From contig NZ_JAHRYQ010000001.1 in the NCBI RefSeq assembly GCF_020622065.1, positions 1,178,001 to 1,242,000 on the forward strand: DNA of 64,000 nt, written 5' to 3'. Shown here piece after piece: positions 59,513-61,388 of the stretch. Every line of letters starts with the position of its first letter. The first letter of the stretch is position 1. This stretch comes from Geothrix sp. (lineage in GTDB: Bacteria; Acidobacteriota; Holophagae; Holophagales; Holophagaceae). A program made the position numbers and the translations under genes. The notes beneath the pieces are model-generated. The model saw only the letters and a list, made by a program, of their open reading frames with translations. It was not told where the DNA came from and did no database searches.

Positions 59513-59619
59513 GGGAAGTGTGGAGACCCGCCCGCTGGGACCCGGGCTCCAAAGCCTTCGGCCCCTCCGGTGGTCTCCGCGAACCTGCCTGGTATCCAGG
59601 CGATGTCGCGGAGGGTTCC

Positions 59620-60126
59620 ATGTTGAAACTGTCGCTCCTCCTTCTCCCGGCCCTGGTGCTCCAGGCCCAGGACTCGGTGATTCCAGGCGCCGTGGAGGTG
59701 CGCACCGGCGTCTTTGTGCTCAAGGGCACGCCCAACGAGACCACCTGCCAGGCGCTGAAGAAGCACCACTTCACCCATGTGATAGACCTGCGCCGGGATG
59801 ACGAGCCGAACCTCAATTGCGAGTCCGAGTCGGCGAAGATGTCCGATCTGGGAATCCACTACCAGCGCTACGCGCTGGCCAAGGCGCCTCCGGATGCGGA
59901 CTTCGACTTCCTGAGAACCCTGTTGCGCGACCTTCCCAAGGGCTCCCGGGTGCTGCTCCACTGCAGCAACGGCAACCGGGCCGCGGCCATCGTCTGCCCG
60001 TGGCTGGTGCTGGACAAGGGGATGCCCATGTCGGAGGCGCTCCGGATCTCCATGGAAGCAGGTCTCCAACTGCCTGAAACCCAGGCGGCCGTCCGGCGCT
60101 ACCTCGGCCGCCACGGCATGACCTAG
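59620..60126 (+). CDS. Secreted rhodanese/DUF442-like phosphatase-fold protein, copy 2
   Basis: The 168-aa protein starts at ATG 59620 (GGAGG five bases upstream) with a signal peptide (MLKLSLLLLPALVLQAQ). It shares the layout of the protein at 3256-3756: IPGAVEVRTGVFVLKG, THVIDLRRDDEP, DFDFLRTLLRDLPKGS and the loop HCSNGNRAA, again C-x4-R. Here His precedes the loop Cys, as in many phosphatases, whereas copy 1 has Thr. The gene stands alone between hemN and the palindromic element; its TAG stop lies inside that element's outer edge. Role unknown, with periplasmic phosphatase or sulfur transfer as options. Confidence 0.75.
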   Translation: MLKLSLLLLPALVLQAQDSVIPGAVEVRTGVFVLKGTPNETTCQALKKHHFTHVIDLRRDDEPNLNCESESAKMSDLGIHYQRYALAKAPPDADFDFLRTLLRDLPKGSRVLLHCSNGNRAAAIVCPWLVLDKGMPMSEALRISMEAGLQLPETQAAVRRYLGRHGMT

Positions 60127-60129
60127 AGC

Positions 60130-60391
60130 GCCGAACAAAACCCCGACGGGGCCGCGAGCAAGCCAGGTGGGATGCACCGCCAGGAAGGGCCCGCAGGGCG
60201 ATGCGGGACATCGTTCAAGGGCCGTGACGCCGCGGGGCGCCCACCTGGCTTGCTCCCTCCGGGCGAGGGCCGGCGAGCGTCGCGATGCAGCGTCACGCTC
60301 GTCACGCGTATTACCCGCTACGCGTCTCCTCGCGTTCCTCGCCTCACTCGCCCGGCGGCCCTCGCGCGATCCCGTGGGGGTTTTGTTCGGC
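60130..60391. repeat. Large multi-armed inverted-repeat element between convergent genes
   Basis: The outer arms GCCGAACAAAACCCC (60130-60144) and its complement (60377-60391) are perfect over 15 bases, and the pairing continues imperfectly inward. Two inner arms follow. One is a 16-base perfect repeat, GAGCAAGCCAGGTGGG, at 60156-60171 with its complement at 60240-60255. The other is CCGGGCGAG at 60259-60267 with its complement at 60347-60355. Together they would fold into a three-armed cruciform or RNA. The two flanking stop codons lie within CCTAGAG-type copies on each side. It holds no convincing gene and may be a dispersed repeat or a structured RNA. Confidence 0.8.
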
Positions 60392-60395
60392 ACTC

Positions 60396-61388
60396 CTAGA
60401 GTTTTAAGGGCGACAGCACCATCCATGCGCCCACGATGAGGGTGAAGAGCAGGGCCAGGGTCAGCGCGGTCCAGGTGAGCTTCCGCTGGATCCCGGGCAG
60501 GGCGAGCGCCAGGCTGGGGCGCCCTTGAAAGGGCGCCAAGGCGCCGACGCCCAGGCCCGAGATGGCTCCCCCCAGCAAGGCTCCGTAGAGCGGATAGCCG
60601 ACGAAGCCGTACTCCCGGTGCAGCAGGCAGAAGGGGCAGTGGTGGGTAGGCAGGGCGTAGATGTAGAGGCCGATGAAGGAGATCAGTGAGGCGGTGGCCA
60701 CCGCCAGGAAGGCCAGGCTGAGGATTGCGAACGGGATCGTGCCTTGGCGCCTCCGGAGAACGAGGCCGCCTGTGACCAGCAGGGCCGCCAGGACGGACCA
60801 GAAGGCGGGGCGCATGAGCCGTGGGGGCAGCCCGGCCAGGCTGGCTCCGAGGCTCTGGCGGCCCTGCCCGAAGAGGCTGCCGCAGCAGCTCGTCATCACA
60901 TCGGCTTTCAGGCCGGCGACATAGCGCCACAGCAGGTAGGTTTCCAGCAGCACCAGGGGGACGAGCAGCAGCAGCAGGGCGTGCTTCGCACGGATCAGCG
61001 GGTAGTCGTGGCCCCGGGTATCCGCGTGATGGAGGACCAGCCACAGCCCTGCCAGCAAGCAGGTGCCGAGCTTCACCAGGAGGGTGGGGTAGCCGAACCC
61101 GTTGGCGGCGAGGGAGCCTGCGGCGCACATGGCGCCCACGAACTGATCGTGCAGGCCATCCGCCGTGAAGACGAACAGGAACAGGGACAGGATCTGGATG
61201 ACGAGGGCGTTGGCGACGAGGGTGGAGACCAGGTAGGTGCGCCGTTCCAGATCGAGCTGCCGCTCGCTGCCGCTCCGGAGGTTCCACCGGAGCATGATCT
61301 CGACGGCATGCCAGCCCGCGAAGCCCAGCATGAGCGAGACGAGGCCCGAGGCGAGCAGGAGGGCGAGGACTCCCGGGTGCTGAATCAT
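60396..61388 (-). CDS. Multi-Cys membrane protein of the nosL-ABC operon
   Basis: The 330-aa protein has about nine hydrophobic segments. Cysteines occur in soluble or boundary positions: FVGAMCAAGSLAANGFGY, LKADVMTSCCGSLFGQG and ALPTHHCPFCLLHREYGFVGY. The last has paired CxxC and nearby His, apt for binding a metal or for a disulfide relay. I do not recognise a named family. It overlaps the ATPase gene by four bases (ATGA) and ends the five-gene operon. It likely works with the NosL-like protein and the permease. Confidence 0.72.
   Translation of the reverse strand: MIQHPGVLALLLASGLVSLMLGFAGWHAVEIMLRWNLRSGSERQLDLERRTYLVSTLVANALVIQILSLFLFVFTADGLHDQFVGAMCAAGSLAANGFGYPTLLVKLGTCLLAGLWLVLHHADTRGHDYPLIRAKHALLLLLVPLVLLETYLLWRYVAGLKADVMTSCCGSLFGQGRQSLGASLAGLPPRLMRPAFWSVLAALLVTGGLVLRRRQGTIPFAILSLAFLAVATASLISFIGLYIYALPTHHCPFCLLHREYGFVGYPLYGALLGGAISGLGVGALAPFQGRPSLALALPGIQRKLTWTALTLALLFTLIVGAWMVLSPLKL

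Follow-up and report, generated by a model that had tools for sequence, protein, structure and literature searches.

The window analysed here, a 64,000-nucleotide stretch of DNA from Geothrix sp. (genome 3.35 Mb, in two contigs), contains a 270 bp element at positions 60126–60395 (plus strand). Its boundaries were obtained by comparing copies end to end and from an empty site in the sister genome G072. The element lies between two convergent genes. The left-hand gene (59518–60126, plus strand) encodes a dual-specificity-phosphatase-like protein (Pfam DSPc, E = 1.4e-6, under the curated cut-off), and its TAG stop borrows the first base of the element. The right-hand gene (60396–61388, minus strand) encodes a product that appears hydrophobic by eye and had no match in Pfam or NCBIfam. 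The minus strand between 60396 and 63917 encodes a hydrophobic protein, a NosL-family protein, an ABC transporter ATPase and, as judged by eye, a permease-like protein; these genes resemble part of a nos-type cluster.

The trinucleotide CTA borders the element on both sides. In the left copy (60123–60125), TA provides the first two bases of the left gene's TAG stop, and the right copy (60396–60398), read on the minus strand, forms the TAG that ends the right-hand gene. The original prediction had described matching CCTAGAG-like edges and extended the symmetry of the element into the gene ends. Both TAG stops are present, but the edges are better read as a 3-bp CTA target duplication, because G072 aligns with the joined window flanks, one CTA removed, at 144 of 160 positions without gaps. 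At this empty site in G072, the convergent genes have overlapping stop codons. For the window copy, the target duplication and the empty site are thus both observed. Thirty orthologous loci were fetched, and BLAST detected the element only at the window's own locus.

The outer stem (P1) is formed by a left half at 60126–60156 and a right half at 60365–60395, which are 87% complementary over 31 nt and include a perfect 15-mer (60130–60144/60377–60391). The outer ~18 bp of this stem constitute the terminal inverted repeat (TIR). It encloses a first inner repeat (60156–60171/60240–60255), matched at 16 of 16 positions, and a second (60260–60279/60349–60368; 20 nt, 85%), so that the one outer and two inner inverted repeats predicted for this region were all found in place. 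The predicted folding energy was –179.4 kcal/mol, compared with –132.2 ± 5.6 kcal/mol for 200 shuffled sequences (z = –8.43), none of which equalled it. The palindrome is confirmed; the three-armed fold that had been proposed did not hold as a unique structure and is replaced here by an outer TIR with two inverted arms. A chance palindrome is excluded by the z-score of the fold and the existence of further copies. Window positions 59900–60600 gave no match in Rfam even at E ≤ 1, and the five matches in four loci with copies were all under the gathering score; the one that overlaps an element is Archaea_SRP on locus L223 (22.6 bits versus a gathering score of 96.5). The element is not a known Rfam family, since none reaches its gathering score.

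Copies of the element are dispersed across the genus. BLAST relatives were present in 24 of 25 Geothrix genomes and in none of 16 other genomes of the same class (41 genomes), and the lack of a second copy, which would have counted against the original prediction, was not met. In the window genome, BLAST recovered the full window copy, two diverged copies with end repeats of their own (L002 and L003) and a fragment (L004); the arm model R1, described below, gave at least 5 matches, possibly with second arms among them. A core-pattern scan of named genomes returned, among the matches listed, mostly Geothrix and Holophagaceae (Acidobacteriota). We examined 109 candidate copies in Geothrix and kept 91 after filtering on end repeat and length; the remaining 18 had a weak end repeat, were cut by a contig end or were of the wrong length. 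The retained copies are mostly uniform in size, with 81 at 266–275 bp, 7 longer (363–406 bp) and 3 shorter. Extra hairpin modules occur in one or both arms of the longer copies inspected.

Hairpin insertions identify L071, L074, L075, L087, L088, L091, L096, L097, L101, L105 and L113 as modular variants. Some of these have gained ~42 nt directly before the AGGAA motif in arm 1, others ~95–120 nt in arm 2, and a few carry both insertions; L101 lacks most of arm 2. At L027 (positions 1507–1556, genome G002), a 50-bp remnant without a core consists of two end repeats with TTA on either side, and is probably an internal deletion product. Genome G018 harbours an IS110-family RNA-guided transposase gene (L112, 1679–3031) inside an element copy, in the 3′ half of the outer stem. 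The same genome contains 49 matches to the end repeat GGAGCTGGAACGGAATAAT (≤2 mismatches), equivalent to roughly two dozen copies of a subfamily whose spread appears to be recent.

The outer repeats of the 91 copies, which match within each copy by condition of the filter, form 20 clusters by sequence, of which the largest comprises 61 copies. A perfect 16-bp end repeat is found in 40 of the 91, a good end repeat likewise having been a filter condition. Perfect 3-bp duplications, mostly TAA, TTA, TGA or TCA, flank 25 of the 91 copies (shuffled mean 8.2, maximum 20) and are absent from 66 of the 90 copies with unique flanks. The boundary refinement scored a 3-bp duplication as a minor term, which introduces a slight bias towards finding duplications.

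Three of the end families match the ends of IS5 transposons (NF033580, transpos_IS5_3). The right end of the Geothrix IS5_3 transposon L115, GAGTGCCTAACAATAC, equals the 3′ end of element L009 at 16 of 16 positions; this IS is bordered by TTA on both sides, and the similarity between its two ends is only partial. The TIR of element L094 is identical to the end beside the IS5_3 gene of L131 (16/16; 18 by eye). In Thalassospira profundimaris, element L317 agrees with one end of an IS5_3 IS of the same genome (L405, 857 bp) at 14 of 14 positions, and with the other end at all but one. No inverted repeat of ≥14 was found within L115, L118 or L132. The IS that matches the end family of the window copy, L115, is from a different genome, and the window copy's own end departs from it (GAGCGCCGAAC versus GAGTGCCTAAC). 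A partner IS could not be assigned to most of the 20 end clusters, and neither the window genome nor G018, with its two dozen or so copies, now contains an IS5_3 or DDE_Tnp_1 transposase. DDE_Tnp_1 was rejected as a partner, being missing from 18 of 31 genus genomes searched, G018 included, and the GGAGCTGGAACGG end family is therefore left without an identified partner.

The element meets the criteria for a miniature inverted-repeat transposable element (MITE) in that it is short (270 bp, <500 bp) and transposase-free, being too small to encode one and with no examined open frame resembling a transposase, and has TIRs, a target-site duplication, an empty site and a TIR match to an autonomous IS. 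A MITE-like dispersed repeat had been among the original suggestions, alongside a binding or topology element and a structured RNA, and the dispersed copies, TIRs, target duplication, empty site and matching IS5 ends bear the MITE reading out. Together they support the classification of the element as a non-autonomous MITE with IS5-type ends; its mobilisation in trans is inferred, without a transposition assay.

Inside the TIRs lie two copies of a single hairpin motif. Arm 1 (P2; 60156–60255, plus strand) is the conserved hairpin and scored 104.5 bits with R1, a covariance model built on 19 diverse arms, the window copy among them. It contains the motifs AGGAA (60182–60186), CAAG (60216–60219) and TGAC (60225–60228), and the arm 1 motifs AAGGA, CGC.GG.C, CAAG and TGAC surround paired segments. 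Arm 2 (P3; 60265–60363, minus strand) is a diverged copy of the arm motif, which R1 did not recover with default filters and detected with filters off at 34.5 bits (E = 2.9e-7). With filters off, 23 of 23 Geothrix loci tested, including the window copy, showed the motif twice, once on each strand; under default filters, both arms were recovered from 10 of the 21 non-window loci. Arm 2 scored 23–55 bits in the Geothrix loci. As a baseline, arm 1 reached up to 25 bits on the wrong strand, and the three weakest arm 2 scores overlap this range; on its own wrong strand, arm 2 scored at most 12.7 bits among the values listed. The dyad architecture is observed, with the weakest second arms least secure.

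Compensatory base changes, whose absence would also have weakened the original prediction, are abundant in the arms. Among the 19 diverse arms, 28 of 36 pairs showed double compensatory changes, with a covariation score of 0.538 versus 0.159 for shuffled alignments (none of 500 reached the observed value) and 0.10–0.16 for slid pairings. Beyond the genus, 33 of 34 predicted pairs were doubly compensated in 103 arms (89 of them distinct) from 81 loci; because this alignment had been fitted to the model, its pair counts lean towards the model, although the pairs themselves were predicted afresh by RNAalifold. One non-Watson–Crick pair switches between A.G (64 arms) and C.A (22), with 3 exceptions among the 89 distinct arms. 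Next to it are a G-C pair that never varies and a G.A that almost never does; by our own interpretation the group looks like a tandem sheared-pair motif. A structured RNA had been one of the original suggestions: the strong covariation supports a structured nucleic acid, but does not by itself establish that it is RNA.

The arm is not confined to Geothrix. Its pattern also occurs in Thalassospira, Pelagibius, Dongia, an alphaproteobacterial metagenome-assembled genome and the bacterium MnTg02. Among sampled genomes, R1 matched 33 of 297 from Acidobacteriota (Geothrix included; 11 of 167 genera), 40 of 385 from Alphaproteobacteria, to which T. profundimaris belongs, and 27 of 398 from the phylum of that species. 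The samples have genomes in common, and sequences from a few of them had gone into the model. Match counts per genome are limited by how many candidates were scored and are therefore lower bounds; they refer to arms, not elements, so that both arms of one copy may count. In the alphaproteobacterial genomes, many matches are paired on opposite strands, a few bases apart. An outer repeat spanning 256–279 bp was present in 31 of 40 loci outside the genus, with none seen in 7 and another size in 2; the elements there are mostly similar in size to those of Geothrix, and their ends are unrelated. No plasmid relatives were found with a MnTg02 copy as the only query, and the exact core pattern was found in no viral contigs. 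Three points had escaped the original prediction, namely that the arms are inverted copies of one motif, that the ends vary by copy and that the core spans phyla. The conservation of the hairpin middle between two phyla suggests a real function.

The balance of G.U and A.C mispairs differs between the parts of the element. Outside the genus, G.U outnumbers A.C in the arm stems by 120 to 51. In Geothrix the ratio is 40:31 in arm 1 (p = 0.07 against the 20:31 of the TIRs) and 10:11 in arm 2 (12 rows), and the terminal repeats of 27 loci outside the genus gave 6:8. These counts fit selection on the arms in folded-strand form, with the TIR being recognised as double-stranded DNA; the Geothrix arms alone are no proof. 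We do not take the G.U excess as proof of RNA, as it is clear outside Geothrix and weak within, and folded single-stranded DNA is not excluded for the arms. The hairpin pair probably acts as RNA, a function that is inferred in the absence of transcript data.

We found no description of this element family in the openly licensed literature. Bacterial MITEs such as Correia/NEMIS, RUP, ERIC and QMITE are short and mostly intergenic, with TIRs and a target duplication; stable hairpin transcripts are predicted for them, and related IS are thought to mobilise them (PMC10969869, PMC2229807). A table in PMC2229807 assigns each MITE family a single genus or group and a single TIR size, whereas the Geothrix element combines one conserved, covarying interior with many unrelated TIRs in two phyla. 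The CIR elements of Caulobacter, ~110 bp long with GANTC motifs, are listed without TIRs (PMC2229807). In layout they resemble the present element, having two inverted-repeat arms with a linker and an intergenic location in Alphaproteobacteria; they differ from it in that TIRs enclose the arms of the Geothrix-type element. With the IS5 family (NF033580) the element shares the ends of three families and, in part of the copies, TNA duplications. Unlike IS5, it has no transposase gene, and its arm was not found in the 12 IS5 loci searched with filters off, save for 3 weak matches at 16–18 bits.

Several other explanations were considered. If the element were an ordinary MITE with a leftover interior, its hairpins could persist without selection through template-switch correction between the arms of the palindrome. 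The outer stem fits this, as both ends change together, a perfect 16-bp repeat is present in 40 of 91 copies and the stem shows no preference for G.U (20:31). Stems that change are what template switching would produce, but it does not predict near-invariant unpaired motifs across phyla, a covarying non-Watson–Crick pair or a similar size with unrelated ends; nor was the arm found in the searched IS5 loci, beyond the weak matches above. We regard this explanation as unlikely, without dismissing it. A little less probable still, in our judgement, is that the two-arm core is a mobile unit of its own, which inserts into the middle of IS-derived palindromes already in place, with wholesale exchange of ends as the result. 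The arm does occur in two phyla with unrelated ends, and some pairs of cores are 95% identical with ends that agree only at chance level (7–8 of 18 bases; random mean 6.8), for example L052/L064 and L066/L070. Such pairs are a minority, however: the 95 core pairs with ≥95% identity share on average 15.7 of 18 end bases. The ends GAGTGCCTAAC, GAGCTCATAAC, GAGCTCATATC and GAGGTCGTATC are intermediate and fit a fast concerted change of both ends, and the sole core-less palindrome inspected, L027, looks like a deletion product.

A host-maintained role as a bidirectional terminator or 3′-end stabiliser between convergent genes would be consistent with the 55 of 90 Geothrix copies that abut the stop codon of an open frame of ≥100 codons, 11 of them on both sides. 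Yet the same criterion is satisfied by 76 of the 160 non-coding TNA/CTA sites in the window, and much of the stop adjacency therefore reflects target choice and selection against gene disruption. There is also no T-run directly after the stem, and by BLAST the element is missing from the other orthologous loci fetched; we give this role very little credence. The subset with perfect duplications abuts a stop codon more often (21 of 24) than the control sites, but the gene calls are crude, and we therefore do not claim stop-codon targeting for these or for the copies as a whole. REP, BIME and REPIN sequences, associated with RAYT, comprise hairpin pairs in opposite orientation and occur in many copies per genome, and the present element, with its two inverted hairpin units, is like them in both respects. 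Mobilisation of the element, as a palindrome pair of REPIN or BIME type, by a Y1 (RAYT) transposase is nevertheless scarcely credible, as Y1_Tnp is present in only 5 of 27 carrier genomes (35 genomes searched). With no consistent Y1 transposase, identity with RAYT/REPIN was rejected. The element moreover has the TIRs and duplication of an IS5-type element, neither of which is expected from Y1 transposition. Another genome of the genus, G118, has five identical-scoring Y1_Tnp (IS200/RAYT-like) genes, one of them at C1:1121467–1121823.

The explanation we consider probable is that of a non-autonomous IS5-type MITE in which several transposases move one interior in trans, with a two-arm single-strand motif inside. 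The dispersal, the TIRs and their matches to IS5 ends in three end families, the dyad, its covariation and its occurrence in two phyla are observed, and the mechanism is put forward to account for them. A transposase would recognise the TIRs; copies bearing the ends of different IS5 relatives would be mobilised in trans by whichever IS5 transposase fits their current ends, so that one kind of interior could be carried by several transposases. With arms on opposite strands, each strand would present one correctly oriented arm, which would make a correct arm available in either insertion orientation, whichever flanking gene reads into the element. The arm may work as a folded single strand, most likely as RNA at the 3′ termini of transcripts from adjacent genes, and might be bound by a host factor or by a transposase. 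Movement in trans as an event, expression as RNA, the binding partner and any benefit to element or host are inferences. More tentatively, and with more doubt than conviction, the family could be a new class of structured nucleic-acid parasite, whose dyad hairpins (RNA or folded single-stranded DNA) have spread between Acidobacteriota and Alphaproteobacteria by repeatedly acquiring the ends of active IS5 elements; selection would then act on the hairpins and not on the ends, with recognition by a conserved surface on a host component or a transposase.

The interiors of MITEs are commonly regarded as passive filler. In this family, across two phyla, it is the interior that is conserved and the ends that change. 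The 91 Geothrix copies and the arms from 81 loci elsewhere provide a family in which to find the protein or process that the arm engages, and a test case for the concerted evolution of palindrome ends. Should the arm prove functional, as RNA or as a single-stranded DNA motif, the element would be a selfish structured element that exploits several transposases.
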